A stretch of 64,000 nt of DNA. Source: Bryobacteraceae bacterium. GTDB lineage: Bacteria > Acidobacteriota > Terriglobia > Bryobacterales > Bryobacteraceae. The stretch is taken from positions 101,717 through 165,716 of the forward strand of contig JAIEMJ010000033.1 of the NCBI GenBank assembly GCA_019752335.1, in the 5' to 3' direction. The stretch's first letter is position 1; the number at the start of each line of letters is the position of its first letter. Shown in pieces: positions 7,939-44,334 of the stretch. The notes below the pieces were generated by a model. It saw only the letters and a program-made list of their open reading frames with translations. It had not been told where the DNA came from and did not search any database. Made by a program: the position numbers and the translations under genes.

Positions 7939-8127
7939 TTAGGCTTCGGCGACTTCAATCACTTCGCGGCCAGCCTTCCCGTACTTGCCGCACTTCGGGC
8001 AAACCCGATGGGGCAGCTTCGGCTCAAAGCAATGGGGGCAATCGTTACGGCCAGGGACGCGCAGGGCGTCGTGAGCGCGGCGGGTGGAGGTGCGGCGCTG
8101 GGAGTGACGTCTTTTTGGATTAGGCAT
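7939..8127 (-). CDS. rpmF: 50S ribosomal protein L32
   Basis: A 62-residue basic protein starting MPNPKRRHSQRRTSTRRAHD, the conserved bL32 N-terminus. A four-cysteine zinc ribbon follows (CPHC at about residues 31-34 and CPKC at about 44-47), so this is the zinc-binding form. It lies between the DUF177 gene and plsX, the usual arrangement that links ribosome assembly with phospholipid synthesis. Confidence 0.97.
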   Translation of the reverse strand: MPNPKRRHSQRRTSTRRAHDALRVPGRNDCPHCFEPKLPHRVCPKCGKYGKAGREVIEVAEA

Positions 8128-8155
8128 GGATTTCGATCCGTACTTCTATAATTTA

Positions 8156-8680
8156 CTAACTCAGCTTAAAACTCTTCAGCGCTTCCCAGCGGCTTTCCAC
8201 CACTGGAGAAACACAGGAACAACTCTGCTCATTCAAGCTCACGCCGCAAATCGGGCATAAGCCTTTGCAATCTTTCCGGCACAAGCGCTGCACCGGCAGG
8301 GCGAGCAGTACCTGCTCCCGCAAAATATCCCGCAGCGAGATGCCTTCACCTTCGTAAAAGCCAACATCGCTATCCGCCGCCTTTAGCCCCACCTCTACAC
8401 CGCCTTCCAGCTCTTCGAGCGGACGGTAGTACAGGTCAAACTTCTGGCGAATCTCCTCCCCGGCCGGCTCCAGGCAGCGGTCGCATGGCGTCTTCACCAG
8501 AATGTGAAAATCGCCCTGCACGTGAATTTCGCTCACCGAGTCCAAAAACTCGGCGACTCCCTGTGCGGAGAGCGGCCCCACCTGTTGCAGTTCGGGATCC
8601 AGGAGATCGACCTCCCCGGGCGCGTAGGCGACCTCGAACCGTTTCGGCTTTAACTCAAGTTCTCTGATCTTAAAAAACAT
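8156..8680 (-). CDS. YceD/DUF177 family protein
   Basis: A 174-residue protein with the DUF177 core: CDRCLEPAGEEIRQKFDLYY at about residues 76-95 and, in the C-terminal half, a cysteine-rich segment (LCRKDCKGLCPICGVSLN) that could bind zinc. YceD homologues are needed for normal 23S rRNA levels and are encoded just before rpmF, as here (29 bases apart). It starts at ATG 8680 and heads the yceD-rpmF-plsX operon, divergent from the LptC/OstA-like gene. Confidence 0.9.
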   Translation of the reverse strand: MFFKIRELELKPKRFEVAYAPGEVDLLDPELQQVGPLSAQGVAEFLDSVSEIHVQGDFHILVKTPCDRCLEPAGEEIRQKFDLYYRPLEELEGGVEVGLKAADSDVGFYEGEGISLRDILREQVLLALPVQRLCRKDCKGLCPICGVSLNEQSCSCVSPVVESRWEALKSFKLS

Positions 8681-8859
8681 GGATTTTCAAAAGACCTGGA
8701 ACCTAAGCACCCAAACGTGACCATCCCGAAGGACGGTAGAGAGAAACGAACCCTCTGAGTATAGCGCAAATCCTCTCCGGTGTGCGCGTCGGCCAACTAA
8801 AGCGCCTGTTTTCATCGCTTTCGCCATTTCCGGCTGATTCTGGTAAGGTGGAAGCAGGA

Positions 8860-11118
8860 ATGCGGCGATTCGCTTGGTTGCTAGTAATTGCGATTTTGGG
8901 CATCGTTTTCGCCGTCGGCAACTCTTACCTGCGGCAGAAGCGTCTCACCGCCTCGAACGCCCCGCCCAAGCCCGCTGCCCTCTCCCGCGGACTCTCCGCT
9001 AAGGCCTCCAAATGGGAGTGGGCCAACAACCAGGGCGACAAGCCCAAGGCCCTCATCCGCGCCACCAGCTTTCGCGAAATCAAGGACCCGCCCAGCACCG
9101 AGCTCGAAGGCCTCGAACTCCTCCTCTACGACAAGTCCGGCGTGAAGTATGACCTCGTCGAGAGCGCCCAAGCCCGCTTCACCAAAGGCGACCGCGTGCT
9201 CTTCTCCGAAAGCGACGTCCGCATCACCATGGGCATCCCCGAAGGCGGCCCCAAGCCGAATCGCGTGCTCGAAATCAAGAGCTCCGGCGTCCGCTTCGAG
9301 CTCGACTCCAACCGCGCCTCCACCGAAAAGCCCGTCTGGTTCAAGTTCGGCCTGGGCGAAGGCAAAGCCATCGGCGCGGACTATGACCCGAACCTGCATG
9401 AGCTCATCCTCCGTAGCGCCGTTGAACTCACCTGGCATGGCGCCAAGACCATGCACGTCGAATCCGGCGAGGCCCTCTATAAGGAGCTCGAAAGCAAGGT
9501 CTACCTGAAGCCCTGGGCCAAGCTCACGCGCGACAACCTCGTGCTCAACGCGCAGGACTCCGTCGTCGAGCTCGAAAAGGGCATTGTCCGCCGCGTCGAC
9601 GCCAACAAGGCCGTCGGCAGCGACCGGCAGAAGGGCCGCACTCTCGAATACGGCGCCGACACCCTCCACATCGAGTTCAACGCCAAGGGGCAAGCCGAAA
9701 AAGTAGAGGGCATCGGCGCCGCGCGCCTCTCCACCACCAACGAGCGCGAGCGCACGCAGATGAATGCCGCCCGCGTGGACCTCGAATTCCTCGCCACCGA
9801 CAAGGATTCTGCCTTGCAGCGCGCCTTCGCGCAAGGCAAGGCCCGCGTGGAGGCCAAGCCCTTGCCGCGCGACAAGGTGCCGCCCGCCGAGACGAAGGTG
9901 CTCTCGAGCGAATCTATCGAGCTCAAAATGCGCCCCGGTGGCGAAGAGATTGACCGGATGGAGACGCACGATCCTGGCGTGATTGAACTCCTGCCGAATC
10001 AACCCACCCAGCGCCAACGCCGCCTGGAGGGCGAGCGCATTCAGATGGCTTATGGCAAGAACAATGTGCTCGAGAAGCTCACCAGCGTGAAGTCCTCCAC
10101 GCGGACCGAGCCCGCTGCCTTCCCGGTCCCCAAGACGCCCGGCGTGCCTGTCCTCACCTGGAGCCAGCATCTCGAAGCCAACTTCACCCCCACCGGCGAA
10201 CTGGCGCGGATGGAACAGTGGACCAACTTCCGGTATCAGGAAGGCGCCCGCCAAGCCACCTCGGACCGGGCCCGGCTCGAACAGGCCAAAAGCGAAATCC
10301 ACCTCACCGGGAAAGCCCGCGTCTGGGATCCGGGCGGCTCCACCGACGCCGACACCATCCTGCTGGACCAAAAGACCGGCGACTTCTCCGCCGCGGGCCA
10401 AGTCCGCAGCGTGCGCGAGGGCGAGCGCAAGCAGACCGCCGGCGGCCTCATGAGCAGCAGTGAGCCCGTCCGCGCGACGGCGAACCAGATGTTTTCCACG
10501 GCCAAGAATACGCAGGTTCGCTACGAAGGCCGCGCGGTGATGTGGCAAGGCGCCAACCGCCTCAGCGCCGATCACATCGACATTGACCGGCCCGCCCAAA
10601 TCCTGAAGGCCAAGGGCCAAGTCGTGAGCCAGATACTCGATACCCAGGCGCCCAAAAGCGCCGGCCAAGTCTTCACCATCGTCCGCGCGCCGGACTTACT
10701 CTATTCCGACAAAGACCAGTTCGCCCACTACACCGGTGGTGGCGTATTTCTCACCCGGCCCGGCTTGCAGGTAAAGGGCCAGGAAATCCGCGCCTATATG
10801 TCCTCGAACGAGAATAGCCAATCGAATTGGGAAGGCCCCGACGGCGGCCTGGAAAAAGCCTTCGCCGACGGTAAGGTGGAGATTCTCGAGACCAAGGATA
10901 CGAAGTCCCGCCAAGGCTGGGGGGACCACGGCGAATACTACGTCGGCGAGTCGCGCCTGGTGCTCGAAGGCACGCGCCCCAAGATGATCGACTTGCTGGC
11001 CGGTGTTCCGCAGCGCACCACGGAAGGCAAAAGCCTGGTCTGGTTCGCCAACAACGACCGCCTCATCGTCGACGGCGAAGAGAGCAAACGCGCGATTTCG
11101 AACCTGAAGAAAAAGTAA
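8860..11118 (+). CDS. LptC/OstA-like lipopolysaccharide transport protein (large fusion)
   Basis: A 752-residue protein. It has an N-terminal membrane anchor (FAWLLVIAILGIVFAVG, about residues 4-20), an LptC-like beta-jellyroll region (about 60-240: IRATSFREIKDPP, ALYKELESKVYLKPWAK), and a C-terminal OstA/LptA-like region (about 540-750: ATANQMFSTAKNTQVRYEG, RLSADHIDIDRPAQILKAKG). LptC and LptA together bridge the periplasm for LPS. The length, about three times that of either single protein, suggests a fused bridge. I chose ATG 8860, preceded by AAGGTGGAAGCAGGA, over an upstream ATG at 8782. Its last 564 coding bases are duplicated exactly at 17919-18482. No lptB follows. Confidence 0.75.
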   Translation: MRRFAWLLVIAILGIVFAVGNSYLRQKRLTASNAPPKPAALSRGLSAKASKWEWANNQGDKPKALIRATSFREIKDPPSTELEGLELLLYDKSGVKYDLVESAQARFTKGDRVLFSESDVRITMGIPEGGPKPNRVLEIKSSGVRFELDSNRASTEKPVWFKFGLGEGKAIGADYDPNLHELILRSAVELTWHGAKTMHVESGEALYKELESKVYLKPWAKLTRDNLVLNAQDSVVELEKGIVRRVDANKAVGSDRQKGRTLEYGADTLHIEFNAKGQAEKVEGIGAARLSTTNERERTQMNAARVDLEFLATDKDSALQRAFAQGKARVEAKPLPRDKVPPAETKVLSSESIELKMRPGGEEIDRMETHDPGVIELLPNQPTQRQRRLEGERIQMAYGKNNVLEKLTSVKSSTRTEPAAFPVPKTPGVPVLTWSQHLEANFTPTGELARMEQWTNFRYQEGARQATSDRARLEQAKSEIHLTGKARVWDPGGSTDADTILLDQKTGDFSAAGQVRSVREGERKQTAGGLMSSSEPVRATANQMFSTAKNTQVRYEGRAVMWQGANRLSADHIDIDRPAQILKAKGQVVSQILDTQAPKSAGQVFTIVRAPDLLYSDKDQFAHYTGGGVFLTRPGLQVKGQEIRAYMSSNENSQSNWEGPDGGLEKAFADGKVEILETKDTKSRQGWGDHGEYYVGESRLVLEGTRPKMIDLLAGVPQRTTEGKSLVWFANNDRLIVDGEESKRAISNLKKK

Positions 11119-11120
11119 GC
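10555..11120 (+). repeat. 566-bp direct repeat, copy 1 (3' end of the LptC/OstA-like gene)
   Basis: Bases 10555-11120 match 17919-18484 with no difference that I can see on base-by-base reading. Similarity stops sharply at both ends: C versus G before the AACCGC start, and C versus G after the final AAGTAAGC. Copy 1 is part of the intact gene and its right edge abuts a truncated tRNA. Perfect identity implies a recent event or an assembly artefact. Confidence 0.95.
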
Positions 11121-11161
11121 CGCCGCCTTTCGTAGGGGTTCAAGTCCCCTCCCCCGCACCA
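11121..11161 (+). pseudogene. tRNA 3' fragment (T arm and acceptor end)
   Basis: A complete T arm is present: stem AGGGG at 11134-11138, loop TTCAAGT, stem CCCCT at 11146-11150. It is followed by the 3' acceptor strand CCCCCGC, discriminator A and an encoded CCA ending at 11161. The matching 5' acceptor strand, D arm and anticodon arm are absent: upstream is the stop codon of the LptC/OstA-like gene. The bases before the T arm would suit a long variable arm (Leu/Ser class), but the identity cannot be fixed. The break coincides with the end of the 566-bp repeat. Confidence 0.75.
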
Positions 11162-11181
11162 TTTTTCTTTCGTTCCCATAG

Positions 11182-11211
11182 AAAAGGCCATCGGAAATCC
11201 GATGGCCTTTT
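11182..11211 (+). terminator. Strong hairpin terminator
   Basis: AAAAGGCCATCGG, loop AAAT, CCGATGGCCTTTT: a perfect 13-bp stem with A and T tracts, so it can end transcription in both directions. It probably served the truncated tRNA on the plus strand and may also end the TonB receptor transcript on the minus strand. Confidence 0.9.
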
Positions 11212-11264
11212 CCTTTGGTAGATGAAACGGGTGACGGACCAGGGGGTCCGTCTTACATGGCAGA

Positions 11265-14180
11265 TCAGAAGTTGAGCCGGAGCATGAGTTGAACCGCTCG
11301 CGCCGGAGCCGCGCTGATCGCTTGGCCAAAACGGGGGTCAGCCAAGTTGTTGGCGTAGGTATCGTAGTTCACCAGATTGATCGCGTTGAAGGCTTCGGCG
11401 CGGAGTTGCAGGCGCCAGCGCTCAGTCACCGCGAACTCCTTCTGCATGCCGAGCGTGAGGTCGTAGAACACCTCAGCCCGTTCCGTATTCCGGCCGAGCG
11501 TTCCGAAGGTGCCCGGCGCGGGCAGAACCTGGGCCCGCAGTTGCGGCAAAGTGAGGCCGGGGGCCGGTTGGAAGCCGAACACGCCTGTTTGGCCTCTCAC
11601 CAGCGTTCCCGGGACATCGTTGATCCGGTTCACCACCAGGCCCTCTGGCGTCGCGGTGCCCGAGAGCAAGCTGAACGGAAAGCCACTGCGCCAGGCGTTG
11701 GTGGCGGTGAGTTGCCATCCGCCGAAGGCCGTCCGCGCCAGGCCACGCAACTGGGCCGCGCCCGGCAGGTCATAGATCACCGCGGAGCTGAAGTTAAACG
11801 GCACATTGAACTCGCTGTCGCCCCAATCCAGACGCCGGTTATTCTGAGCATAGATATTCACCGAATCGCGGCTGACTTCGTCGAGCGACTTCGACCAGGT
11901 GAACGAATTGCGCACCGTCAACGACTTGCCGATGCGCCCGTTCAAGGTAGCCTGCAGCGAGTGATAGACCGAGTTCGCCGCGGTCTCCTGTAGCGTGATG
12001 ACGCCGCTCGCCGGATTCGGACGCAAGCCCTGCGCCAACAAGGGACCACCGTTCGGCAGCCGCGTCATCGGCAGGGCCAGGCCACGCGTGCCGACGTAGC
12101 CCACGGAGGCCACCAGTGCCGTGGAGGGCAGCCGGTACTCGGTGGTTAAGTTCCACTGCTGTACGTAGGGCTGGCGCAGATCCTCGCTGGTCACCGTCAA
12201 ATTCTGGGACTGGGTGAGCGAACCGCCCAGCAGATTGTTCATCGCCGGATTGCGCGAAATCACCGTGGTGACGCGCGGCGGCGTCAAGCGAGTGTTGCCC
12301 AAATACCGGGCGGCCAACGGCGCAAAAAACAGTCCGTAGCCGCCGCGGACGACGAAGCTTTGCTGACGGCCTGGCGTGTAGGCAAAGCCAAAACGCGGCG
12401 CAAAGTTATTCCGGTCCGTGCGATAGTTCACGGCTACGCGGTCATACTTGTCGCTCGCGGGGGTGTACAGCTCATAGCGCAGCCCAAAGTTCAAGGTCAG
12501 CGACGGCCGCACCCGGAAGTCGTCCTGCACGTAGAGCGCGATTTCCCGTTGCCGTTGATCGAGGCGCGTGTCCCCGATCACCCGGGTGTAAGAGGCTGGC
12601 CGCCCGGCCAGAAAATCGGCCCGGCTCAAAAACGCCAGATTGCCGTCGCCGTCCGCGCGTTGCGTCGTGGCGATCTGGATGGCCCGCGCCACAATGCCGA
12701 ACTTAATTCCGTGCCGGCCCAGGTTGATGGAGGTGTCATTGGAGGCCTGGTAATTGTGTACGCGCGAGTCGTCGCGGAAGAAGGTCCCGAGCGCCGCGGC
12801 GCCCGTGACGGTGAGGCGGCCTACCTCGCCGTTCAGCGCCGGATCGCCCAGAAACCGGGTGAGGGGCCAGAGCGGGATGTTGTAGGTCGTGTAGTAGGCG
12901 CGCGCTTCGTTCACCACGCGCGAACTCAGCGTGGAGGTGAGATGGAGCACCGCTGAGCGGTTCTGGTTCCAACCGGCTGACCCGGTGGCAAAGAGGTTCG
13001 CCGCGCGCCGGAGCGAGTCAGTATTCGTGACACGCGCCGTCAGGAGATGCTTCTGGTTGATCGACCAGTCCACGCGTCCGAACCAGGTGCGCCCCAACAG
13101 CCGCTCCGAAATGCGGCCCGGATCGAATTGCGGTACGCCGGTGGCGCTGAACGAATTCGGAAGGGGATAGAGCTGCAGCAGGCTTTGCATCGCCGGCGCC
13201 GCGGATGCCCGCTCCGCCTGCGTAAAGGTGGCCTGGGGTACGGCGCTGTTCGCCGCCCGTTGCATGAACCACTCGGCGTTCATCGACACGAAGAGCCGGT
13301 TGCGGATGATGGGCCCATTGAGCAGCATCCCGAACTGATTCTGACGCAGCGAAGGCCGCTCGGTGTTGAGCGTATTCCGGGCGTCCAGCGCGTCGTTGCG
13401 GAAGAACTCATAGAAGCGCCCGTGCCAATCGTTCGTGCCCGACGGCGTCACCAGATTGATCGCGCCACTCGCGGACCGGCCGTACTCGGCCTTGTAACTC
13501 GACGTCTGGACCTCGACGGACCGAAGGGCCTCCTGGCTGACTGGCTGCTCGGTAAAGTTCGCCCCCAGCAGCGAACCGGTGTTCGGATTGTTGAAGTCCG
13601 CACCATCCACCATCACATTCACTGACGATTGTCCGCGCAGCCCATTGATCGAAAACGGGGCATGCGCGGTGCGCGAATTGTTGGTTCCCGGCAGCAGGAA
13701 AACCTGGCTCGAATAGTTCCGGCTGGTGCGGCCGGAAAGGGCCGGGATCCGGTCCAGGTCGCCTTCGGTAAACACGGTGCCGCGGCTGCCGGTGCTCATG
13801 GCGCGCGAGAGTTCGTCCACGCGCTCGCTGACGGTGAGCGTCTCCGCCACGCCCGCTACTTGCAAGGTAAAGTCCAACTGCACGGTGGCCCCTACTTGGA
13901 CTTCCAAGCGCTCCCGCCGAAGTTCGCCGAAGCCCACCTTCCGGACGCGGAGTTCGTAAAGGCCCGGGGGTAAGGCCGCCAGCCGGTACTGGCCATCTGG
14001 GTTGGTCTCTACCGTACGCACCAAGCCGCGCTCTTCGAGGATGGTCTCGACGCGGGCCGCCGATACTGGGGCGCCCGATGCATCGACCACCCGACCGGTG
14101 AGCGTTCCACTCACGGTTTGCGAGAGGGCGGCAGAGCCGCTGAAAAACAGGACAAGAAAAACTGGCAAAATTTGCTTCAT
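11265..14180 (-). CDS. TonB-dependent receptor, Oar-like, with carboxypeptidase-regulatory domain
   Basis: A 971-residue outer-membrane receptor. A signal peptide (KQILPVFLVLFFSGSAALSQ) is followed by a carboxypeptidase-regulatory-like beta-sandwich at about 25-110 (GTLTGRVVDASGAPVSAARV). Then come a plug domain (GLRGQSSVNVMVDGADFN; ALRSVEVQTSSYKAEYGRSASG) and a 22-strand barrel ending in the hydrophobic-aromatic pattern QLMLRLNF. The organisation is that of the Oar-like receptors greatly expanded in Acidobacteria. It is divergent from a three-gene ABC transporter, with a Fur-box-like sequence between them, so the substrate could be a ferric complex (inference). The whole module lies between the two 566-bp repeats. 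Confidence 0.9.
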   Translation of the reverse strand: MKQILPVFLVLFFSGSAALSQTVSGTLTGRVVDASGAPVSAARVETILEERGLVRTVETNPDGQYRLAALPPGLYELRVRKVGFGELRRERLEVQVGATVQLDFTLQVAGVAETLTVSERVDELSRAMSTGSRGTVFTEGDLDRIPALSGRTSRNYSSQVFLLPGTNNSRTAHAPFSINGLRGQSSVNVMVDGADFNNPNTGSLLGANFTEQPVSQEALRSVEVQTSSYKAEYGRSASGAINLVTPSGTNDWHGRFYEFFRNDALDARNTLNTERPSLRQNQFGMLLNGPIIRNRLFVSMNAEWFMQRAANSAVPQATFTQAERASAAPAMQSLLQLYPLPNSFSATGVPQFDPGRISERLLGRTWFGRVDWSINQKHLLTARVTNTDSLRRAANLFATGSAGWNQNRSAVLHLTSTLSSRVVNEARAYYTTYNIPLWPLTRFLGDPALNGEVGRLTVTGAAALGTFFRDDSRVHNYQASNDTSINLGRHGIKFGIVARAIQIATTQRADGDGNLAFLSRADFLAGRPASYTRVIGDTRLDQRQREIALYVQDDFRVRPSLTLNFGLRYELYTPASDKYDRVAVNYRTDRNNFAPRFGFAYTPGRQQSFVVRGGYGLFFAPLAARYLGNTRLTPPRVTTVISRNPAMNNLLGGSLTQSQNLTVTSEDLRQPYVQQWNLTTEYRLPSTALVASVGYVGTRGLALPMTRLPNGGPLLAQGLRPNPASGVITLQETAANSVYHSLQATLNGRIGKSLTVRNSFTWSKSLDEVSRDSVNIYAQNNRRLDWGDSEFNVPFNFSSAVIYDLPGAAQLRGLARTAFGGWQLTATNAWRSGFPFSLLSGTATPEGLVVNRINDVPGTLVRGQTGVFGFQPAPGLTLPQLRAQVLPAPGTFGTLGRNTERAEVFYDLTLGMQKEFAVTERWRLQLRAEAFNAINLVNYDTYANNLADPRFGQAISAAPARAVQLMLRLNF

Positions 14181-14213
14181 AAAAGGTTTGGCCGCTCCTT
14201 TGCGGTGTGTTAT

Positions 14214-14233
14214 GATAACGATAATCTTTTATC
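14214..14233. promoter_or_regulatory. Fur-box-like operator
   Basis: GATAACGATAATCTTTTATC lies in the 74-base gap between the TonB receptor and the ABC genes. It matches the 19-base Fur consensus (GATAATGATAATCATTATC) at 12 of the first 13 positions, then continues with one extra T and the closing TTATC. Its position, 33 bases from the receptor start and 21 bases before the ATPase start, would let one repressor control both directions under iron repletion. Confidence 0.65.
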
Positions 14234-14254
14234 AGTAAGGAACGCAAGTTTTTT

Positions 14255-14959
14255 ATGCTCCAGGCCCTAAATCTTTCGAAAGCCTACGGCAATCAAGTCG
14301 CGCTAGACTCTCTGAATCTCTCCATCGCCGCCGGCGAGATCTTTTGCCTGTTGGGGGCCAACGGAGCCGGCAAGACCACCACCATCAACCTCTTTCTGAA
14401 CTTCACCGCGCCGACTAGTGGCCAAGCGCTGGTTGATGGGCTGGACGTGATCCAGCACCCGCTCGAAAGCAAGCGGCGCCTGGCTTACATTCCAGAGACA
14501 GTGATGCTGTACCGTAACCTCTCGGGCCTCGAAAACCTCGACTATTTCGCCTCGCTCGGCACGCAGCAGAAGTACACGCGCAGCCAACTGGAGACTTTCT
14601 TGCAGCGCGCGGGACTGGCTCCCGACGCGGCTACCAAGAGAATCGGCGCCTACTCGAAAGGCATGCGGCAGAAGGTGGGCATCGCGATCGCGATCGCGAA
14701 GCAGGCCAAGGTGCTGCTGCTGGACGAACCCACCTCCGGGCTGGATCCGGCGGCCTCGAACGAGTTCAGCGAACTGCTCACGCAACTATCGCGCGAAGGC
14801 GTCGCGGTGCTGATGGCCACCCACGATCTGTTCCGCGCGAAGGAGTGCGGCACGCGCGTCGGCATCATGAAGCGCGGCCGGCTGGTGCAAACCATGGCGA
14901 CCTCGGAGATCGGCCACACCGAGCTCGAGGGCATCTATCTCGAACACATGAGGAACTAA
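14255..14959 (+). CDS. ABC transporter ATP-binding protein
   Basis: A 234-residue ABC ATPase with all motifs: Walker A GANGAGKTT at residues 34-42, a signature AYSKGMRQK in place of the usual SGGQ core, Walker B VLLLDEPTSGLD, and the switch histidine in ATHD. The YSKGMRQ-type signature is typical of ATPases serving ABC-2 permeases. It is followed after five bases by two such permeases, which together would form an export or membrane-remodelling complex. Co-regulation with the divergent TonB receptor through the Fur-like box is likely. Confidence 0.93.
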   Translation: MLQALNLSKAYGNQVALDSLNLSIAAGEIFCLLGANGAGKTTTINLFLNFTAPTSGQALVDGLDVIQHPLESKRRLAYIPETVMLYRNLSGLENLDYFASLGTQQKYTRSQLETFLQRAGLAPDAATKRIGAYSKGMRQKVGIAIAIAKQAKVLLLDEPTSGLDPAASNEFSELLTQLSREGVAVLMATHDLFRAKECGTRVGIMKRGRLVQTMATSEIGHTELEGIYLEHMRN

Positions 14960-14964
14960 CGACG

Positions 14965-16380
14965 ATGATCCGTACCATTGCAAAAAAAGAAGTGGTGGAA
15001 GCCCTGCGCGACGGCCGCTTCCGTTGGGCCGCTGGGCTGGTGGGCGTATTGCTGCTGATCGCCTTGGCCGCGGGCACCCGGCAATTCCTCGACTTGCGCG
15101 CGCAACACGAAGCCGCCAAGACGGAAACGCGCGCGCACTGGCTGCAGCAAGGCAAGAAGAATCCCCATTCGGCCGCGCACTATGGCGTTTATGCCTTTAA
15201 GCCGAAGACGGCCTTAAGCCTGCTGGACCAGGGCGTCGACCCCTACACTGGCGTCGCCGCCTGGCTCGAAGCGCACAAGCAGAACGACTTCCGTTACAAG
15301 CCCGCGCAGGACGCCAACACGCTCGCGCGCTTCGGCAACCTCAGCGGCGCCATCATTCTGCAGGCGCTGATTCCACTGGTGATTATTCTGCTGGGCTTCA
15401 GCGCGTTCGCCGGCGAGCGCGAGCAAGGCACGCTGCGCCAGTTGCTCAGCCTCGGCGTCCCTCCGACGCAATTGGCCTGGGGGAAGGCGTTGGGCGTGGG
15501 TGTCAGTTTGGCCATGATCGCCGTGCCCGCTGCGTTGCTGGGCTCGGCCGCGCTGGTGTTCGCCGGCTCGAACGGCGACTACGGCGCCGCCTGGCCGCGC
15601 TTCGCCGGCATGGCGGCGAGCTACGTGCTGTACTTCGTCACCTTCATTGCGCTATCGCTCGCCGTGAGCGCTTGGATGAAGACGGCGCGCGGGGCGCTGG
15701 TCCTGCTGCTGGGATTCTGGGTGGTGAACGCACTGCTGAGTCCGCGGGTGGCGGCCAGCCTGAGCCAGCGGGCGATTCCGGCGCCCGGCGCGTTTCAGTT
15801 CGCGCGCAACATTGAACTCGACCTTGCCCGCCACTCCGACGGTCATGACGCCGGCAAGCATACCGCCAAGTTGCTGGCTGGGACGCTGCAAAAATATCAG
15901 GTGACCAAGGTGGAAGATCTGCCGGTGAGTTTCGTCGGCATTCGCCTTCAGGATGGCGAGGCACAAGGCAACCAGGCCTACGACGCGCGTTATGGCGAAC
16001 TCTGGAACCAGTATGAGCGCCAGGGCCGGCTGCAGGAGGCTTTGGGCGTGGTGGCGCCGTTTCTCGCGATCCGTTCCGCCTCGATGGGCTTCGCCGGCAC
16101 TGACTTTTCGCAGCACCGCCACTTCGCCGCCGCCGCCGAACAGTATCGCCGCTACTTCATCGACGTCATCAACCAGGACATCATCCAGCGCGCTGGGAAC
16201 CAGGGCGTCTATCTGCGTGGCCAGGACCTTTGGAGCCAGATTCGTGACTTCGAATACGAGCTTCCCGGCGCTGGTTGGGTGGCCCAACAGCGCGCGCTCA
16301 GCCTCGCGGTGCTCGCCGGCTGGACCCTCGCCAGCCTTGGTCTGCTGCTCCTTGCCACGCGGCGGTTACGGCTCGAATAA
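14965..16380 (+). CDS. ABC-2 type permease with large extracytoplasmic domain (DUF3526-like)
   Basis: A 471-residue permease: one N-terminal helix (WAAGLVGVLLLIALAAG), a long soluble loop, then five helices beginning LIPLVIILLGFSAFAGEREQGTLRQLLS (the EREQGTL motif of ABC-2 permeases is clear). A second soluble segment and a last C-terminal helix follow. This layout fits DUF3526-type permeases, which occur as pairs next to one ATPase. I used ATG 14965, five bases after the ATPase stop; an earlier in-frame ATG overlaps the ATPase and would add unrelated sequence. Confidence 0.85.
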   Translation: MIRTIAKKEVVEALRDGRFRWAAGLVGVLLLIALAAGTRQFLDLRAQHEAAKTETRAHWLQQGKKNPHSAAHYGVYAFKPKTALSLLDQGVDPYTGVAAWLEAHKQNDFRYKPAQDANTLARFGNLSGAIILQALIPLVIILLGFSAFAGEREQGTLRQLLSLGVPPTQLAWGKALGVGVSLAMIAVPAALLGSAALVFAGSNGDYGAAWPRFAGMAASYVLYFVTFIALSLAVSAWMKTARGALVLLLGFWVVNALLSPRVAASLSQRAIPAPGAFQFARNIELDLARHSDGHDAGKHTAKLLAGTLQKYQVTKVEDLPVSFVGIRLQDGEAQGNQAYDARYGELWNQYERQGRLQEALGVVAPFLAIRSASMGFAGTDFSQHRHFAAAAEQYRRYFIDVINQDIIQRAGNQGVYLRGQDLWSQIRDFEYELPGAGWVAQQRALSLAVLAGWTLASLGLLLLATRRLRLE

Positions 16381-16384
16381 GCCC

Positions 16385-17824
16385 ATGAAAACAATTCTTC
16401 TCCACGAATGGCGCCAACTGCGCGCAGACCGGATGGCCCTGGCTTGCCTGGGCCTCTTTCTTGCCCTGCTGCTCTACGCGTTGGCGAGCGGGACTTTCCA
16501 GCAGCAGCGTCAGCAACAAACCCTGGCCGCCACCGCCCAAGAAGAGACCGAACGGCTCGCGAAACTGAAAGCCCAGTTACTGCGGATCGAGAGCGGCAAG
16601 GCTTCGGCGGCCGGCTTTCTTGACCCCCGCAGCGGCACGGCGATTGGCAACACATCGGGCGTGCGGTACATCACCATGCCTCCTGCCCCGCTCGGCACGC
16701 TTTCGGTGGGCCTCGGCGATCTGCACCCGTACTTCTACAAGCTCAGCCTGCGCAGCAAGTCTTTCACGCTGAATAATGAAGAACTGGAGAATCCGCTGAA
16801 CCTGTTGAGCGGCCCGTTTGACTTGGCCTTCGGGATCGTCATCCTGTTCCCGCTGTTCCTGATCGCGCTCAACTACAACCTGCTGTCGGCCGAACGCGAG
16901 CAAGGGACGCTGGCGCTCATTCTCTCGCAGCCGATTTCGCTGAAAGCGCTGGTAACGGGCAAGGTGCTGGTGCGGGGCGGGGCGCTCGTCGTGGCCGCTG
17001 TGGCCGTCACGCTCGCCGGCGGATTGCTCTTTGGCGCAGGCGCGGCCGTATTCCCCCGGCTGCTGGCCTGGACCGCCATCATCCTGCTCTACGGGCTTTT
17101 CTGGATGGGCCTTTGCGTCTGGGTGAATGCCTGGGGACGCTCCTCGGCCACCAATGCGATCGCTCTTTCCGCCTTCTGGCTGGGCTTCTGCCTCATCATT
17201 CCCTCGGCTTTGAATATCGCCGCCAGCGCACTGTACCCGATTCCCTCCCGAGTCGAGATGATCCAATCGCTGCGGACCGCGGGCAAAGAGGCGCAAGAGC
17301 AAGGCAGCCGGCTGCTATCGCGCTATCTGGAGGATCATCCCGAGTTTGCCCCGGCCCCCGCCCCCGGTGCACCCCCGGCCCCCGCGCCCGATTTTGGCAG
17401 CATCACCTATGCCGTCCAAATGGAAGTGGACAAGCGTACCGAGCCCGTCCTGGCGCGCTTCGAACAGGCCATCGCCCAACAGCAGGCCTTCGTCGATCGC
17501 CTCCGTTACCTCTCGCCCGCCGTGCTCGCGCAAGGCGCGTTGAACGAGTTCAGCGGCACCGGGCTTGCGCGTTATCGGGGCTTTCAGCTCCAGGCGGAGC
17601 GCTTCCATCGGACGTGGCAGCAGTACTTCTTTCCGAAGATCTTCCAAAAGGCCAAGCTCACGTCGGGCGAAATCGATACGCTGCCCCGTTTCCGTTACCA
17701 GGAGGAGTCGCTCGAGGCCGTGGTTGCCCGCTCGGCGCCCTTACTGGCGGTGCTCACCCTGCTGAGTCTGTTGGCTGGCGGACTCTCTCTGGCGAGCTTG
17801 CGTAAATTCAAGCGCTCGCTGTAG
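16385..17824 (+). CDS. ABC-2 type permease, second subunit
   Basis: A 479-residue paralogue of the preceding permease: an N-terminal helix (LACLGLFLALLLYALASG), a long loop with a helical stretch, then a helix bundle starting near residue 145 (FDLAFGIVILFPLFLIALN) with the EREQGTLALILSQP motif. A proline/alanine-rich linker (APAPAPGAPPAPAP) lies near residue 320. It starts four bases after the first permease. The ATPase plus two permeases form one transcription unit; the transported substrate is unknown. Its stop is directly followed by a remnant gene on the other strand, then repeat copy 2. Confidence 0.83.
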   Translation: MKTILLHEWRQLRADRMALACLGLFLALLLYALASGTFQQQRQQQTLAATAQEETERLAKLKAQLLRIESGKASAAGFLDPRSGTAIGNTSGVRYITMPPAPLGTLSVGLGDLHPYFYKLSLRSKSFTLNNEELENPLNLLSGPFDLAFGIVILFPLFLIALNYNLLSAEREQGTLALILSQPISLKALVTGKVLVRGGALVVAAVAVTLAGGLLFGAGAAVFPRLLAWTAIILLYGLFWMGLCVWVNAWGRSSATNAIALSAFWLGFCLIIPSALNIAASALYPIPSRVEMIQSLRTAGKEAQEQGSRLLSRYLEDHPEFAPAPAPGAPPAPAPDFGSITYAVQMEVDKRTEPVLARFEQAIAQQQAFVDRLRYLSPAVLAQGALNEFSGTGLARYRGFQLQAERFHRTWQQYFFPKIFQKAKLTSGEIDTLPRFRYQEESLEAVVARSAPLLAVLTLLSLLAGGLSLASLRKFKRSL

Positions 17825-17918
17825 CTACTCGAGCTCTTTCGTCTTCCAAGTCCCCGTAGCGAAGCCGATGATGAGCGTGTCTCCGCGCGCGCCTTCGAAA
17901 TGCGGCACATTGGCGGGG
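17825..17918 (-). pseudogene. C-terminal remnant of an unidentified gene
   Basis: On the minus strand an open frame enters from the repeat edge at 17918 and reads about 31 residues, including FEGARGDTLIIGFATGTW, to a TAG at 17825. The composition looks like a genuine protein C-terminus, but the upstream part is missing because the 566-bp repeat begins at 17919. I do not recognise the family. The truncation indicates that repeat copy 2 joined or replaced older sequence here. Confidence 0.4.
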
Positions 17919-18484
17919 AACCGCCTCAGCGCCGATCACATCGACATTGACCGGCCCGCCCAAATCCTGAAGGCCAAGGGCCAAGTCGTGAGCCAGATAC
18001 TCGATACCCAGGCGCCCAAAAGCGCCGGCCAAGTCTTCACCATCGTCCGCGCGCCGGACTTACTCTATTCCGACAAAGACCAGTTCGCCCACTACACCGG
18101 TGGTGGCGTATTTCTCACCCGGCCCGGCTTGCAGGTAAAGGGCCAGGAAATCCGCGCCTATATGTCCTCGAACGAGAATAGCCAATCGAATTGGGAAGGC
18201 CCCGACGGCGGCCTGGAAAAAGCCTTCGCCGACGGTAAGGTGGAGATTCTCGAGACCAAGGATACGAAGTCCCGCCAAGGCTGGGGGGACCACGGCGAAT
18301 ACTACGTCGGCGAGTCGCGCCTGGTGCTCGAAGGCACGCGCCCCAAGATGATCGACTTGCTGGCCGGTGTTCCGCAGCGCACCACGGAAGGCAAAAGCCT
18401 GGTCTGGTTCGCCAACAACGACCGCCTCATCGTCGACGGCGAAGAGAGCAAACGCGCGATTTCGAACCTGAAGAAAAAGTAAGC
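17919..18484 (+). repeat. 566-bp direct repeat, copy 2 (headless 3' end of the LptC/OstA-like gene)
   Basis: An exact copy of 10555-11120 in the same orientation, encoding the last 187 residues of the LptC/OstA-like protein through its stop codon. It has no start site of its own: an open frame can be traced back to 17868, but those first 17 residues are unrelated. It is best treated as a non-functional duplicate. The left edge truncates a minus-strand gene; the right edge leads to about 170 bases without a gene and then a metallothionein-like gene. Confidence 0.93.
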
Positions 18485-18652
18485 GGTTCCTCGCGCACTG
18501 AATGAGTTCTTTCTTGGTCGCAACCCCCCTCTCGCATCGAGAGAGTCACCCGGCGTAAAGAATAGCTGATTCGTTCAATACCCGGCAGGGCCTTCGATGA
18601 GAAACTCAACTTCGTTGGCCGCAAGTCAACCAGATCGAAAGGAAAACAAACC

Positions 18653-18805
18653 ATGTCCAAATCAACTCAATGTACCTGCAAATCCTGCCCGGGCGCAGTT
18701 TGCCCATGCGGATGCCAAAGCCCCAAAACCGAACCTACGCAGTCCGGCTGCGCGTGCGGCGATGTCTGCAAGTGCGGCCCCGCCTGCACCTGCAAACGCC
18801 CCTGA
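18653..18805 (+). CDS. Small cysteine-rich metallothionein-like protein
   Basis: A 50-residue protein starting MSKSTQCTCK and ending TCKRP, with 12 cysteines at residues 7, 9, 12, 17, 19, 21, 33, 35, 39, 41, 45 and 47. They form two clusters of six (CxCxxCxxxxCxCxC, then CxCxxxCxCxxxCxC) joined by a Cys-free linker. There are no aromatic residues and no histidines. This is the pattern of metallothioneins, which hold Zn, Cd or Cu in thiolate clusters. AAGGA lies 10 bases ahead of ATG 18653. A metal-binding role is inference from composition; I cannot assign it to a named family. Confidence 0.78.
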   Translation: MSKSTQCTCKSCPGAVCPCGCQSPKTEPTQSGCACGDVCKCGPACTCKRP

Positions 18806-18864
18806 GCGGCGCACTCAGTCCGGCGTCGGGCAATCGAAGTGATCATGAAGACGAAAGGAAGTTT

Positions 18865-19290
18865 ATGGGGTACGGAATCGGAAGCCTACTCTCGGTAGTG
18901 GTGGCTGTGTTTGCGAGGGCCGCGGGATTGGATCGCGATCGCGCTTTCTACCCGACGGTCGTGATCGTAGTGGCCCACTATTACGTCCTGTTTGCTGTGA
19001 TGGGCGGAACCACGCACGCTCTGCTGGTCGAATTGGGCTTAATGAGCGCGTTCGTGGTCGTTGCGGTGGCTGGATTTCAGCGTAACCTCTGGTGGGCCGC
19101 GGCCGCGCTGGTTGGCCATGGGGTGATGGATATCTTCCACGCCGGCCTGGTGACCAATGCCGGCGTGCCAGCATATTGGCCCGCTTTCTGCATGACGTAT
19201 GACGTGGGCGCCGGGGGGATTCTAGCGTGGCTGCTGATGCGCGCCAAGATACCGGCCCTGCCCCGTAGTGGCACCAGGGAGCCAAGTTGA
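18865..19290 (+). CDS. Small polytopic membrane protein (DUF6010-like)
   Basis: A 141-residue protein with four hydrophobic segments. Conserved-looking polar positions are PTVVIVVAHYYVLFAVMG near residue 30 and a helix pair with GHGVMDIFH and WPAFCMTYDVGAGG near residues 90-125. The layout recalls the DUF6010 family of unknown function, at modest certainty. ATG 18865 follows AAAGGAAG. Its stop overlaps the TTG start of the oxidoreductase gene, so the two are coupled. Confidence 0.7.
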   Translation: MGYGIGSLLSVVVAVFARAAGLDRDRAFYPTVVIVVAHYYVLFAVMGGTTHALLVELGLMSAFVVVAVAGFQRNLWWAAAALVGHGVMDIFHAGLVTNAGVPAYWPAFCMTYDVGAGGILAWLLMRAKIPALPRSGTREPS

Positions 19291-20273
19291 AAGCCATTCT
19301 GCACGCCCGCTACGGATCCCCGCACCTCCTCCGCTTCGAAGAGGTGGCGAGGCCAGTACCAAGGGACAAAGAGGTACTGATCAAAGTACACGCGACGACC
19401 GTGTCAACCGGGGACTGCAACATGCGCAATTTCACGTTCGTTACCCCATCCATGCGGCCGATGGCCAAACTTATGTTTGGCATCGGGAAACCCTGGAAAG
19501 AACGCATTCTCGGGACAGAACTGGCGGGAGAGATCGTGGGAGTGGGCAAAGGGGTTACGCGGTTCAAAGCCGGGGACCGGGTTTTTGGCTCGACCGGTAT
19601 GGAGGGTGGCGGCCACGCCCAATTCGCCTGCCTCCCTGAAAATGGGGCGTTGGCGATCAAACCCGATTCTCTGAACTGGGAGGAGGCCGCGGCCATTCCT
19701 TTCGGCGCGAATACCGCGTTGCACTACCTCCGGGGGCTGGGAAAGATCCAGGCTGGTCACCACCTTCTGATCATCGGAGCTTCCGGGAGCATCGGCTCCG
19801 CCGGAGTACAACTGGCCAAGCATTTTGGGGCGACGGTAACCGCCGTCTGCAGCGGCGCGAATGTGGAACTGGTGAAGTCGATGGGCGCCGGCAAGGTGAT
19901 CGACTATACCAAGGAAGATTTCACCAGGCATGCAGAGACCTACGACCTGATATTTGACGTTGTCGGCGCCACCACCTTTCACCGCTGCCAGCACCTGCTT
20001 GAACCCCGAGGTATTTTTCTCCCGTGCATCATGGGTTTGCCTGACGTGGCACAGAGCCTCTGGACCTCTATCGCGGGCGGAAAGAAAATACGGGGCGGTG
20101 TCGCAATCAACAACCTGGAGCGGATGGCCTTCATTGCGGAGTTGGCGGACGCGGGAAAGCTCAAGCCGGTGATCGACCGGAGGTATTCTTTGCAGCAGAT
20201 CCCGCAAGCTTTTGAATACGTTGAACGAGGGCACAAGAAGGGAAATGTCGTAATCACGGTGGAGCACCCGTAA
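19287..20273 (+). CDS. Zinc-free MDR oxidoreductase (quinone reductase-like)
   Basis: A 328-residue medium-chain dehydrogenase/reductase. The N-terminal GroES-like domain (MKAILHARYGSPHLLRFEEV) is followed by a Rossmann domain with LIIGASGSIGSAGVQLAKHFGA near residue 150, a GxGxxG/A-type NAD(P)H site. The catalytic-zinc cysteine and the structural-zinc cysteine cluster of alcohol dehydrogenases are absent, so it fits the quinone oxidoreductase branch. It starts at TTG 19287, overlapping the upstream stop, with GGGAG six bases before. Substrate unknown. Confidence 0.88.
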   Translation: MKAILHARYGSPHLLRFEEVARPVPRDKEVLIKVHATTVSTGDCNMRNFTFVTPSMRPMAKLMFGIGKPWKERILGTELAGEIVGVGKGVTRFKAGDRVFGSTGMEGGGHAQFACLPENGALAIKPDSLNWEEAAAIPFGANTALHYLRGLGKIQAGHHLLIIGASGSIGSAGVQLAKHFGATVTAVCSGANVELVKSMGAGKVIDYTKEDFTRHAETYDLIFDVVGATTFHRCQHLLEPRGIFLPCIMGLPDVAQSLWTSIAGGKKIRGGVAINNLERMAFIAELADAGKLKPVIDRRYSLQQIPQAFEYVERGHKKGNVVITVEHP

Positions 20274-20288
20274 TGATGGCGTTTCCCG

Positions 20289-20981
20289 TTAGTCGTACTT
20301 CTCGCTGATGATTTGCTTGCGGTCGAAGCCGCGGGCTTTGAGAATGGCTCGGACGTCGTCCACCATGGCTTTCAAACCGCAGACGTAGACGTCGAGGTCG
20401 CGGCGTTCGCCGACGGCTTCGAGGACTAGTGGCTGGACGCGCGACGTGGCGCCGCTCCAGGAGGGGTCCGGGCGGGTGAGCGTCGGGACAAAACGGAAGT
20501 TGGGGTGATCGCACTCAGCGGCGCGGAACTCTTCGGCGAAGATGAGGCCGTGGGGGTGCCGGGCGCCGAAGACCAGGGTGAAGTGTTGGCGAGGGTGACG
20601 GCTGAGGGCCCTGGCCAGGATGGCTCGGAAAGGGGTGATCCCGGTGCCGGTGGCGACCAGGATCGTATCCCGCACCGGTGGCCGCAGCACGAAGGTGCCC
20701 AGGGGGCCCTGCATGGGCACGGTGGCGCCGGGCGCGAGGGCGAAGAGGTAGGGCGAAAAGTAGCCGCCTTCGACGCGATTCAGGCAGAGCTCGAAGCGGT
20801 TGCCGTTGGGCGCGGAGGCGATGGAATAGGCCCGCGTCACCGGTTTGCCACGGATCTCCTCGGTGAAGGAGACGAATTGGCCGGCGGTAAACTCTAGCTG
20901 GTCCACTCCGGGGACGTCGAAAAAGAAGTGCTTGATTTCGGGGCTCAGCGAGCGGACTTCGAGCAATCGGGCAAGGGGCAT
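20289..20981 (-). CDS. Ferredoxin-NADP reductase-like flavoprotein
   Basis: A 230-residue single-unit reductase. An FAD-binding barrel carries the RAYSIASAP motif (about residues 50-58) and GGYFSPYLF. A nucleotide-binding domain carries LVATGTGITPFRAIL near residue 110 and a C-terminal DVYVCGLKAMVDDV. There is no iron-sulfur or haem domain, so it needs a separate redox partner. It converges on the MDR gene and is divergent from the MacB-like permease gene, 40 bases away. Confidence 0.88.
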   Translation of the reverse strand: MPLARLLEVRSLSPEIKHFFFDVPGVDQLEFTAGQFVSFTEEIRGKPVTRAYSIASAPNGNRFELCLNRVEGGYFSPYLFALAPGATVPMQGPLGTFVLRPPVRDTILVATGTGITPFRAILARALSRHPRQHFTLVFGARHPHGLIFAEEFRAAECDHPNFRFVPTLTRPDPSWSGATSRVQPLVLEAVGERRDLDVYVCGLKAMVDDVRAILKARGFDRKQIISEKYD

Positions 20982-21021
20982 CTGCCTTTAGTTTCCGACA
21001 ATTCGGCTACGCTTAAGAAGA

Positions 21022-22227
21022 ATGCAAGTGCAGGAAGTTTTGGCGGTGAGCCTGCGGGCGCTGTCGGCGAATAAATTACGGTCGTTCCTCACGGCCCTCG
21101 GACTGGTCATCGGCAACGCCAGCGTAATTCTCGTGGTGACGATCTCGCTCACTAGCACCGAGTTGATTCTGGAGAAGATCCGCGGCATCGGCTCCAACGT
21201 CGTCTGGGCCTATTACGAAGCCGGTTCGCGCGATTCTGACCAAGTGCAGAACGACTTCGTCAATCTGGCGGACGTCGAAGCCATTCGTACGCAACTCGCC
21301 GAGCGCATCGTGGCCGCCACGGCCGTGATGTCCTCGAACGACTTCCTCACCGTCAACGGCAAACCCCAGGAACTGGCCGTCCAGGGCTCGGACGAATTCT
21401 ACCCACGCGTCCGCAATGTGGCCGTGCTGGCCGGCCGCTTTATGGATGCGAGCGAGGTTGCCAGCCGGGCCAAGGTCGCCATGCTGACGGAGAAGCTCGC
21501 CAAGGATCTCTACGGTAGCCAGTCCGCCGCGATCGGCCAGGTGATGAAGCTGAAGGGCTTTCAGTTTACGGTGATCGGCACCTTCAAGGAACGCACCTCT
21601 ACCTTTGGCTTGAGCGAACTCGGCGAGCGCACGGTGCTGATTCCGATTACGGTGCTCAAGTACTTTGTGCGCGTCGAACGGATTGATCCGGTGTACGTGC
21701 AGGCGCGCCGTGCCAACGACGTGGTTGCGCTGACGGGCGAAGTACGGCGGATTCTGGAGAGCCGGCACCGGCCAGGGGCGCGTTATTTCGTCGACAACCT
21801 GGGCTCGATTCTGGAGACGGCGCAACAGATTGGCACGCTGCTGACGTTGGTGCTGATCCTGGTGTCGTTCATCGCGCTGTTGATTTCCGGTATCGGGATT
21901 ATGAACATTATGCTGGTGACGGTGACGGAGCGGACACGAGAAGTCGGCTTGCGGATGGCGATCGGGGCCAGCCGTCGCGAGGTGATGCTCCAGTTCCTGG
22001 CGGAAGCGACGATTTTGAGCGTTAGCGGCGGGTTGCTGGGTATGCTGATTGGGTTGGCGATTCCGGTGATTGGGCAGCAGTTCGCCGAGGGTTTGGATAT
22101 CCAGATTTCGTGGATTTCGGTGGCTGTTTCCTTTCTGGTGTCGTTCGTCGTCGGGCTGACGTTCGGCTATCTACCGGCGCAGCGCGCGGCCGGTTTGAGT
22201 CCCACTGAAGCTTTGCGCTACGAGTAG
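21022..22227 (+). CDS. MacB/FtsX-type ABC permease
   Basis: A 401-residue protein with the MacB layout: an N-terminal helix (SLRALSANKLRSFLTALGLVIG), a periplasmic MacB_PCD domain (about residues 50-270), and three C-terminal FtsX helices (LLTLVLILVSFIALLISGIGIMN). The coupling-helix region TERTREVGLRMAIGASRREV is also present. No ATPase partner is adjacent, so one encoded elsewhere must power it. Such proteins drive mechanotransmission for export or lipoprotein processes. Confidence 0.88.
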   Translation: MQVQEVLAVSLRALSANKLRSFLTALGLVIGNASVILVVTISLTSTELILEKIRGIGSNVVWAYYEAGSRDSDQVQNDFVNLADVEAIRTQLAERIVAATAVMSSNDFLTVNGKPQELAVQGSDEFYPRVRNVAVLAGRFMDASEVASRAKVAMLTEKLAKDLYGSQSAAIGQVMKLKGFQFTVIGTFKERTSTFGLSELGERTVLIPITVLKYFVRVERIDPVYVQARRANDVVALTGEVRRILESRHRPGARYFVDNLGSILETAQQIGTLLTLVLILVSFIALLISGIGIMNIMLVTVTERTREVGLRMAIGASRREVMLQFLAEATILSVSGGLLGMLIGLAIPVIGQQFAEGLDIQISWISVAVSFLVSFVVGLTFGYLPAQRAAGLSPTEALRYE

Positions 22228-36837: not shown

Positions 36838-36914
36838 CGGGGCGTAGCGCAGCCTGGTAGCGCATCTGCTTTGGGAGCAGAGGGTCGTGAGTTCGAATCC
36901 CACCGCCCCGACCA
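36838..36914 (+). tRNA. tRNA-Pro (TGG)
   Basis: Full cloverleaf: acceptor CGGGGCG with CGCCCCG at 36904-36910, anticodon arm CTGC-TTTGGGA-GCAG with anticodon TGG, T arm GTGAG-TTCGAAT-CCCAC, and encoded CCA at 36912-36914. The 3' 48 bases recur at 39332-39379, marking this gene as the integration site of a small island. Confidence 0.97.
36867..36914 (+). repeat. Attachment-site repeat in tRNA-Pro (left)
   Basis: The 48 bases from the anticodon arm to the encoded CCA are identical to 39332-39379. Integration into a tRNA 3' end by a tyrosine recombinase leaves exactly such a direct repeat. This side keeps the functional tRNA. Confidence 0.9.
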
Positions 36915-36920
36915 ATACAT

Positions 36921-37553
36921 TCAATCTGTTGCGGGCATCTTCAGGATGCCCATTTCTTCGCTGTAGATATTTTTGTAGACACCTCGACCGTTTGCGGTCT
37001 TCAGGCCGTTCCGCCATGGCGGGATCGCGCGTGGTTTGCCGCCCTTCCCCACTACTTCTACTTCACGCTGGTTGGTTTCGAAGGGCAGCCTCTCAAGGGA
37101 GAGAGCTTCCGAGACCCGGAGCCCCGTCGTAAGCAGTACGTCGATCAGGGCCCGCAGCCGAAGGTTTATGAAGGTGGTCGGCGGGATTGCAGAGTAGATC
37201 TGGCTCACTTCCTCGTTCGTCAGGTACTGGACGTGGGGCCGGGGGCGCTTCGGCAGTAGAATCTCCGCCGGGTTCAGCGCTTCCACTTTGAGCACCGTGC
37301 GGCAAAACTTCAGAAACCCCTTCAGCGTCATGAGCACGCCGTACTGGCGGTTGATGCCGGTGTTGGCCTCAACCATGGCGCTGCGCAGGCTTACCACCGA
37401 CATGCGGTCGAATCGGGAAAGATCCAGGCCGCCGAAATGCCGCACGACCCACGAGTTCATGCAGTCTTTGTACTTTACGAGGCTTTCTTTGGAGTAGCCA
37501 CCCTCTGCCCGCGCCCAGGACTGGAACAGCGTTGTTGCGTCTTCAATGGTCAT
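36921..37553 (-). pseudogene. Tyrosine recombinase, C-terminally truncated
   Basis: A 210-residue product. The N-terminal core-binding domain lies at about residues 5-90 (LFQSWARAEGGYSKESLVKY). The first half of the catalytic domain has the active Arg146 in LLTTGLRVSEALSL and the beta-hairpin lysine in VVGKGGKPRAIP (170-173). Sequence then drifts into a non-homologous tail. The HxxR box, the second histidine and the nucleophilic tyrosine are all missing, with the stop only six bases from the tRNA end. An internal deletion on the tRNA side is the simplest explanation. Confidence 0.83.
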
Positions 37554-37631
37554 CGTTGTTTCTACTTACTGCTCGGATAGTCACATTAGCAGACGTGCAG
37601 AAACTTCCAAGGCGGGAAAGGATGGGGATAA

Positions 37632-37660
37632 GAAAAGCCCCGCCACCTTCGGCAGGGCTC
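37632..37660 (-). terminator. Hairpin terminator on the minus strand
   Basis: AGCCC-C-GCC at 37636-37644 pairs with GGC-A-GGGCT at 37651-37659 (one mismatch, six-base loop), followed by TTTTCTT on the minus strand. It separates the 37705-38277 gene from the recombinase remnant. Confidence 0.65.
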
Positions 37661-37704
37661 TCACTTGCTCAATTAGGATCGGCCAACACGGTGACGATGC
37701 CTAT

Positions 37705-38277
37705 CTACCCGTAGTAGCAGTCCTCCAAATACTCTGCGGTTACAAAGCGGACGAGTTGCCCGAGCTCGTTAAAGATGAAGAACACGGGTGGGACTTTAGT
37801 GTATTTCTCATACGGAGCAAAATTGTTTCCGCTTGGCGACTCAGGCGCATATTTTGAGTACATGCGCTCATAAACGGACTTCCGATGTGCCTCGTCGTAG
37901 CCGTAGACTGAATCGCCGTCGTCCGTCGTGCCGATCAAGACCAATTCTCTGAACGTCTCAGGGGAAACCGCGTCGATTGCACTGGTTTCACCACAACGAT
38001 TGATCGAGCGGTTGGAGTAAGGTGATGTGGGCCTACTTCCGTCTGTCCATGTTAAACGGGGAACGCTGTTGTTCCCTAATACTTTGGATGCTAATCGATA
38101 CTGAATTGAGGATCCATCGACGGTCGGCATGCTGAATATGGTTGGTGTGGCAAGCAAATCACCATAAAGATTACGGCCATCAACGGTCTGATACCAACTG
38201 CTTTGCTTTTCCATACAGAACCGATTAACCGGGTCCTCAGGAGAATAGATTAAATGCACCGCTTGATGTTGCAACAA
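37705..38277 (-). CDS. Hypothetical protein of the tRNA-Pro island
   Basis: A 190-residue open frame. The N-terminus overlaps the upstream gene by 41 bases in another frame. Its first residues (HQAVHLIYSPEDPVNRFCME) look like the middle of a protein rather than a start, and no ribosome site is visible before ATG 38277. It has no membrane segment and no motif I recognise. The later part, PPVFFIFNELGQLVRFVTAE, has beta-strand character. It may be the second half of one gene whose first half is 38237-38962, split by a frameshift. Confidence 0.45.
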   Translation of the reverse strand: MLQHQAVHLIYSPEDPVNRFCMEKQSSWYQTVDGRNLYGDLLATPTIFSMPTVDGSSIQYRLASKVLGNNSVPRLTWTDGSRPTSPYSNRSINRCGETSAIDAVSPETFRELVLIGTTDDGDSVYGYDEAHRKSVYERMYSKYAPESPSGNNFAPYEKYTKVPPVFFIFNELGQLVRFVTAEYLEDCYYG

Positions 38278-39331: not shown

Positions 39332-39379
39332 TGCTTTGGGAGCAGAGGGTCGTGAGTTCGAATCCCACCGCCCCGACCA
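39332..39379 (+). repeat. Attachment-site repeat, tRNA-Pro 3' copy (right)
   Basis: An exact 48-base copy of 36867-36914, from TGCTTTGGGAGC to GACCA. The 5' half of the tRNA is absent here, so it is not a functional tRNA. It is the distal attachment site of the small island. Confidence 0.93.
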
Positions 39380-42815: not shown

Positions 42816-42829
42816 AAAGGTTAGCCACC

Positions 42830-44329: not shown

Positions 44330-44334
44330 CCGCT

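Follow-up and report, generated by a model that had tools for sequence, protein, structure and literature searches.

The window, by which the whole analysed stretch of 64,000 nucleotides is meant, corresponds to positions 101717-165716 of contig C18 in a 7.2-Mb assembly of 55 contigs that is 97% complete, and has a G+C content of 59.8%. It contains a gene for an LptC/LptA-like fusion protein whose 3' end is found a second time downstream, in the same orientation, and between the two copies lies a block of 6.8 kb (11121-17918) with four transport genes inside. The left end of this block carries a piece of a tRNA gene, and its right end a piece of a cupin gene on the opposite strand. The features of the locus are collected in Table 1.

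Table 1. Features of the repeat-flanked transport block and its surroundings, in window coordinates.
Feature	Position	Strand	Remarks
LptC/LptA-like fusion gene, complete	8782..11118	+	778 aa, counted from the first listed start codon; above cut-off in Pfam for LptC and LptD_N/LptA
Left repeat copy	10555..11120	+	Lpt gene end, stop codon and two bases beyond; exact match to 17919-18484
9-base spacer of unknown origin	11121..11129		Outside the tRNA-Leu matches
tRNA-Leu(GAG) 3' remnant	11130..11212	+	T-arm, acceptor 3' strand, CCA, trailer hairpin
Oar-type TonB-dependent receptor, 971 aa	11265..14180	-	Pfam CarboxypepD_reg, Plug, OMP_b-brl_4
ABC transporter ATPase, 234 aa	14255..14959	+	Pfam ABC_tran
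ABC-2 permease with DUF3526	14965..16380	+	Pfam
Second ABC-2 permease with DUF3526	16382..17824	+	Pfam
Cupin gene end, cut at the repeat	17825..17918	-	Last 30 codons and stop
Right, orphan repeat copy	17919..18484	+	188-codon gene end without the gene start
Post-repeat stretch, 76 bases	18485..18560		Perhaps native Lpt trailer; similarity to the same-genus relative G001 begins at 18561

The repeat and the gene whose end it copies

An exact-repeat comparison within the window gave identity in 566 of 566 bases between the two copies, at an offset of 7,364. The left copy takes in the final 564 coding bases of the complete Lpt gene, its stop codon among them, and the claim of the preliminary description that these bases recur unchanged 7,364 bases downstream is thereby confirmed. 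The target gene is consequently present in two states, as a complete ORF at the left and as a gene end lacking a start at the right. Two DNA searches of the assembly placed the repeat at these two positions only. Moreover, a survey of 816,605 bases of the same assembly, 11% of its 7.2 Mb (contigs C18, C49, C54 and C55 whole, and parts of C1, C3, C21, C23, C38 and C44), returned 24 exact repeats that span at least 40 bases, the second longest of which has 91 bases. The 566-base repeat is thus neither a product of chance nor typical for this assembly. A further repetitive region is found at the start of contig C18, which lies within a repeat array with a period of 120 bases (L117 1-550).

The gene at the left copy, labelled LptC/OstA-like in the preliminary description, has Pfam matches to both LptC and LptD_N/LptA above cut-off, and its predicted role is lipopolysaccharide transport. 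The organism is a Bryobacter-like acidobacterium, and G001, the sole relative of the same genus among the genomes searched, encodes an Lpt protein with 83% amino acid identity over 754 residues. Over the repeat itself, G001 is 80% identical in bases, and the two copies in the window have not a single difference. Thus, the duplication is either recent or not real.

The Lpt gene was matched in 59 of 61 genomes, and the 20 best-scoring places, two from Bryobacter and 18 from other genera of the family, were inspected. Directly after the Lpt gene, lptB is found in 14 of these 18 loci, and the remaining four have no lptB in the available flank, which in one case is truncated where the contig stops. 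For the two Bryobacter genomes, the window genome and G001, the best lptB match is located on another contig. In G001, a gene that by eye resembles a GDSL-type esterase begins 17 bases past the Lpt stop codon, and the corresponding stretch gave no match in the window genome. The search of related genomes for the uninterrupted order, suggested in the preliminary description, did not yield it: the order leading from the Lpt gene to 18485 was not found in any genome searched, and G001 carries the Lpt gene without the block but with a right-hand neighbour different from that of the window, its matches to the window's right flank being placed on other contigs. The stretch between the right repeat copy and 18561 has an unremarkable fold (z -0.6), and no terminator was found by scan at either Lpt gene end.

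In both Bryobacter genomes, no more than about 80 bases separate the Lpt stop codon from other DNA. It could be speculated that the 3' end of the Lpt gene serves Bryobacter genomes as a landing site for incoming unrelated DNA, and that the window has caught a natural insertion-duplication before its erasure by RecA, in which a receptor/exporter cassette was ligated to a fragment of a host gene; this proposal is a long shot.

Contents and relatives of the transport block

The receptor gene is encoded on the minus strand, and the ATPase and the two DUF3526 permeases are divergent from it. The presence of a TonB receptor and an ABC-2 system between the repeat copies, as first described, is confirmed by Pfam. 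The designation of the module as an iron-type transport system finds no such backing, since none of the haem and siderophore receptor models reaches its cut-off for the block receptor (the cut-off of the best-scoring NCBIfam haem-receptor model is 316.85, and the receptor scores 30.5, far below it) and the ABC genes are of the ABC-2 type. ABC-2 systems are mostly exporters. DUF3526 was not mentioned in the literature searched.

With respect to its composition, the block has a correlation of 0.47, inside the range of 0.26-0.68 obtained for sliding segments of the window, and gives no clear signal of a foreign composition. Within the same window, the lowest tetranucleotide correlations with the remaining sequence (0.26-0.39), together with a somewhat lower G+C content, belong to the 6.8-kb segments starting at 42001-54001, and the region 42000-58000 is possibly acquired.

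The assembly holds one full-length match of the block. A segmental duplication, one of the three origins considered in the preliminary description, does not fit, given that the search of the assembly did not yield the block a second time and that the sequence past the second repeat is not block sequence. Among 237 genomes of the family, 19, including the window genome, match the block at an E value of 1e-60 or better; the matches in the other 18 consist of pieces that are 65-72% identical, so that none of the 237 emerged as the source of the block. The receptor region is matched in three of the 19 genomes, all from genus g5. Two of them, G136 and G144, carry the same four genes in the same divergent arrangement, with a receptor about 65% identical in amino acids; in the third, G148, the receptor is present and no match to the ABC genes was found in the 18 kb read. 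Closer receptors, 88 and 90% identical, are encoded on short metagenome contigs. A plasmid origin was also considered and rejected: 23 plasmid records match the block, none over 80% of it, and the best covers 13%. One scan of viral contigs gave no relative of the receptor.

The loci of G136 and G144 are 85% identical over the 6.6 kb of the cassette, and outside it share only matches of 298 and 41 bases. Since the cassettes are alike and their flanks unlike, it is the cassette itself that changes neighbours, and the comparison suggests that the receptor/ABC-DUF3526 unit moves as a whole. These two cassettes, from a genus other than that of the window, are located at L185 5555-12080 and L187 7195-13753. 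The g5 cassettes differ from that of the window in having other neighbours and no exact flanking repeat of at least 20 bases; such direct repeats were absent from seven of eight cassette loci, and that of the eighth is a 26-base tandem.

Remnants at the inner edges

The preliminary description placed a cut tRNA gene at the left inner junction, starting at 11121. A tRNA remnant is indeed present, but it starts at about 11130, as indicated by its match to the genome's own tRNA-Leu(GAG) and by the family genomes. Contig C21 holds an intact tRNA-Leu(GAG) with its trailer, to which the remnant is 83% identical along 83 bases, with no difference in the first 34. In 237 family genomes, nearly all tRNA matches listed begin no earlier than block position 9-12, and the one that begins first does so at position 7, in a single genome; and the bases 11121-11129 were absent from the variable arm in all 25 tRNA-Leu(GAG) genes obtained from 30 fetched loci. 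The stretch 11121-11225 folds strongly (z -5.0), and neither ARAGORN nor Rfam calls the remnant as a tRNA. The genome's own tRNA-Leu(GAG) (L052 6223-6307) has an A-C mismatch in the acceptor stem, GCGGAGG versus CCCCCGC, which is also seen in some other genera (L201, L203) and is absent in genus g5. Beyond the remnant, an intergenic palindrome-like element at 11229-11257 has 19 further partial copies across the genome, according to one search.

At the right inner edge, the minus-strand gene that had been described as cut at 17918 is confirmed as such and corresponds to a cupin C-terminus, with 84% amino acid identity over 31 residues (83% in nucleotides) to an intact paralogue on contig C23, which itself gave no match in G001. 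An ORF spanning the junction with the repeat (17868-18482) is matched over its whole length solely by the window's own contig (99% of the ORF, 100% identity; a cluster of 3 sequences and 1 contig); the other ten of the 11 proteins that match it show 37-84% identity over 56-92%.

Complete tRNA-Leu genes, five in number (anticodons TAA, TAG, CAG, CAA and GAG), and the intact cupin paralogue are present elsewhere in the assembly; therefore, the two remnants are extra copies and not broken resident genes. Neither the missing 5' half of the tRNA nor the missing half of the cupin gene was found in the searches. A derivation of the block ends from the resident tRNA-Leu(GAG) on C21 or from the cupin gene on C23 was rejected, as both genes are intact, only 83% identical to the remnants, and have other neighbours.

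A tRNA 3' end with its own trailer behind it resembles the far end of a tRNA-integrated element, and the same window holds a remnant of this sort at a tRNA-Pro gene. It could accordingly be asked whether the block is a site-specific integrative element that restored the 3' end of the Lpt gene on entry, the tRNA-Leu remnant being an older attachment site. Nevertheless, no integrase, transposase or replication gene was seen by Pfam among the block genes, the tRNA piece lies outside the repeat, and the repeat is perfect over 566 bases, whereas known integrative elements have short cores, all of which makes this reading very improbable. A transposon with target-site duplication was rejected for the missing transposase, the lack of an inverted repeat at the block ends (scan of 8000-22000) and a duplication as long as 566 bases. 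For site-specific integration, for transposition and for duplication of the block alike, at least one of the defining features tested is absent, and these readings are disfavoured.

As for the tRNA-Pro gene, its final 48 bases (36867-36914) have an exact second copy at 39332-39379, and a 210-aa fragment of a XerD-like integrase, matching only the first 178 or so of 290 model positions, adjoins it; the region 36838-39379 is read as the remnant of a small integrative element.

Origin of the arrangement

Both junctions between repeat and block join unrelated sequences, and the third, from the right repeat copy into the right flank, is plausibly native. In the reading we prefer, to which a probability somewhat below one half (about 0.45) is assigned, the block entered as a circle carrying the same gene end and was inserted by a single crossover into the Lpt gene, that is, by insertion-duplication. 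First, a circle of 7,364 bases would have formed by end-to-end joining of a DNA fragment of 6.8 kb with 566 bases from the organism's own genome. RecA would then have crossed this circle into the resident Lpt gene. The outcome would be tolerated because the fragment extends past the stop codon by two bases, leaving the left gene copy complete. It is predicted that a crossover between the direct repeats, mediated by RecA, would release the 7,364-base circle again and restore the uninterrupted gene.

Several findings are consistent with insertion of a circle: the perfect repeat occurs only at the two outer edges and each inner edge cuts an older feature; the assembly has a single block and intact versions of the cut features, whose other halves were not found; G001 has the gene without the block; and the composition of the block is within the window range. 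In addition, transformed bacteria are described as integrating foreign DNA that is joined to a homologous segment (PMC3784515). Among the three origins considered in the preliminary description, integration of a circle through homology is the best fit to the anatomy of the locus, with a wrong join as its alternative. Against it, the formation of the circle requires two unlikely joins, the model leaves unexplained why the repeat ends on its right side just two bases beyond the stop codon, no relative with the uninterrupted order and no source genome of the block were found, and the assembly has the appearance of a k=77 short-read product, whose graph would look alike for a separate circle.

The same final order would also result from capture at a chromosomal break, with no circle involved, if a foreign 6.8-kb fragment had been joined between staggered ends 566 bases apart, or if a replication fork had changed its template and returned, the repeat being copied in the course of the joining. 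The joins show at most one shared base at the right edge of the repeat and the 9-base spacer at the left end of the block, and end joining often leaves joins of this type. A stagger of 566 bases is, however, long for bacteria, and a resident template for the copying is ruled out to the extent that the block turned up only once in the assembly. This route is considered unlikely.

A different kind of explanation is that the chromosome is uninterrupted, and that the assembler walked a loop and wrote into the contig either a separate circle, composed of the repeat and the block, or DNA that was chimeric in the library, in which case a related strain may have supplied the block. Among 34 contig ends, 15 pairs share at least 25 bases, and six of the 15 share exactly 77, as is characteristic of de Bruijn assembly with k=77; for this reason the assembly looks like a product of short reads of this type. 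Apart from the 566-base repeat, no exact repeat longer than 91 bases was resolved in the 816,605 bases surveyed, and the absence of the other halves of the cut tRNA and cupin from the searches, as well as the match of the fused ORF to the window's own contig alone, point in the same direction. At k=77, both copies of the repeat fall on a single graph node, with two ways in and two ways out, and an integrated block is the same graph as a separate 7,364-base circle. The choice of the assembler between the two is set by read pairs and depth.

Even so, such a graph requires reads over both inner junctions, which would imply a real molecule with these joins in the library, and it would be unlikely for chance to place a wrong join precisely at each end of one 566-base stretch. 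Two such wrong joins are less likely than one real molecule, although this molecule need not be chromosomal. A separate circle would have to contend with the lack of a replication gene in the block to maintain it, and the composition of the block, which is not foreign to the window, also speaks against an artefact. Taken together, an artefact or a separate circle ranks second in probability, behind insertion of a circle and ahead of capture at a break.

Returning to insertion of a circle, the arrangement is analogous to Campbell-type insertion-duplication, in which a circle integrates by a single crossover with homologous DNA, as is also known from the ectopic integration of ligated fragments in transformed bacteria. 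In both cases, direct homologous copies bracket the insert, one copy of the gene is intact and the other is a fragment, and the insert can in principle be excised. The window case differs in that it is natural and belongs to a Bryobacter-like genome, in that the insert has neither vector nor replicon, and in that the circle itself is inferred. Homology-facilitated illegitimate recombination usually deletes recipient DNA, whereas this locus has gained a second copy of the target end, and its joins are illegitimate at both inner edges. The likeness to that process, which is cited in PMC3784515, lies in foreign DNA anchored by homology and in an illegitimate join. Elements integrated at tRNA genes share with the block the tRNA 3' remnant at one end; in contrast, the block has no integrase, and its long perfect repeat does not include the tRNA.

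Insertion-duplication is a known kind of event, and a natural case in this group would be a useful example once confirmed by reads. Taking into account that loss by recombination between the repeats is expected, the perfect repeat, if its joins are real, points to a recent event. Should the joins not be real, the locus would illustrate that a short-read assembly can yield a convincing false insertion, which is of relevance to surveys of gene transfer in draft genomes. If they are real, they would represent a natural, additive capture of genes without a mobile element, by which DNA devoid of integrase or transposase would become chromosomal through its joining to a fragment of the host genome.
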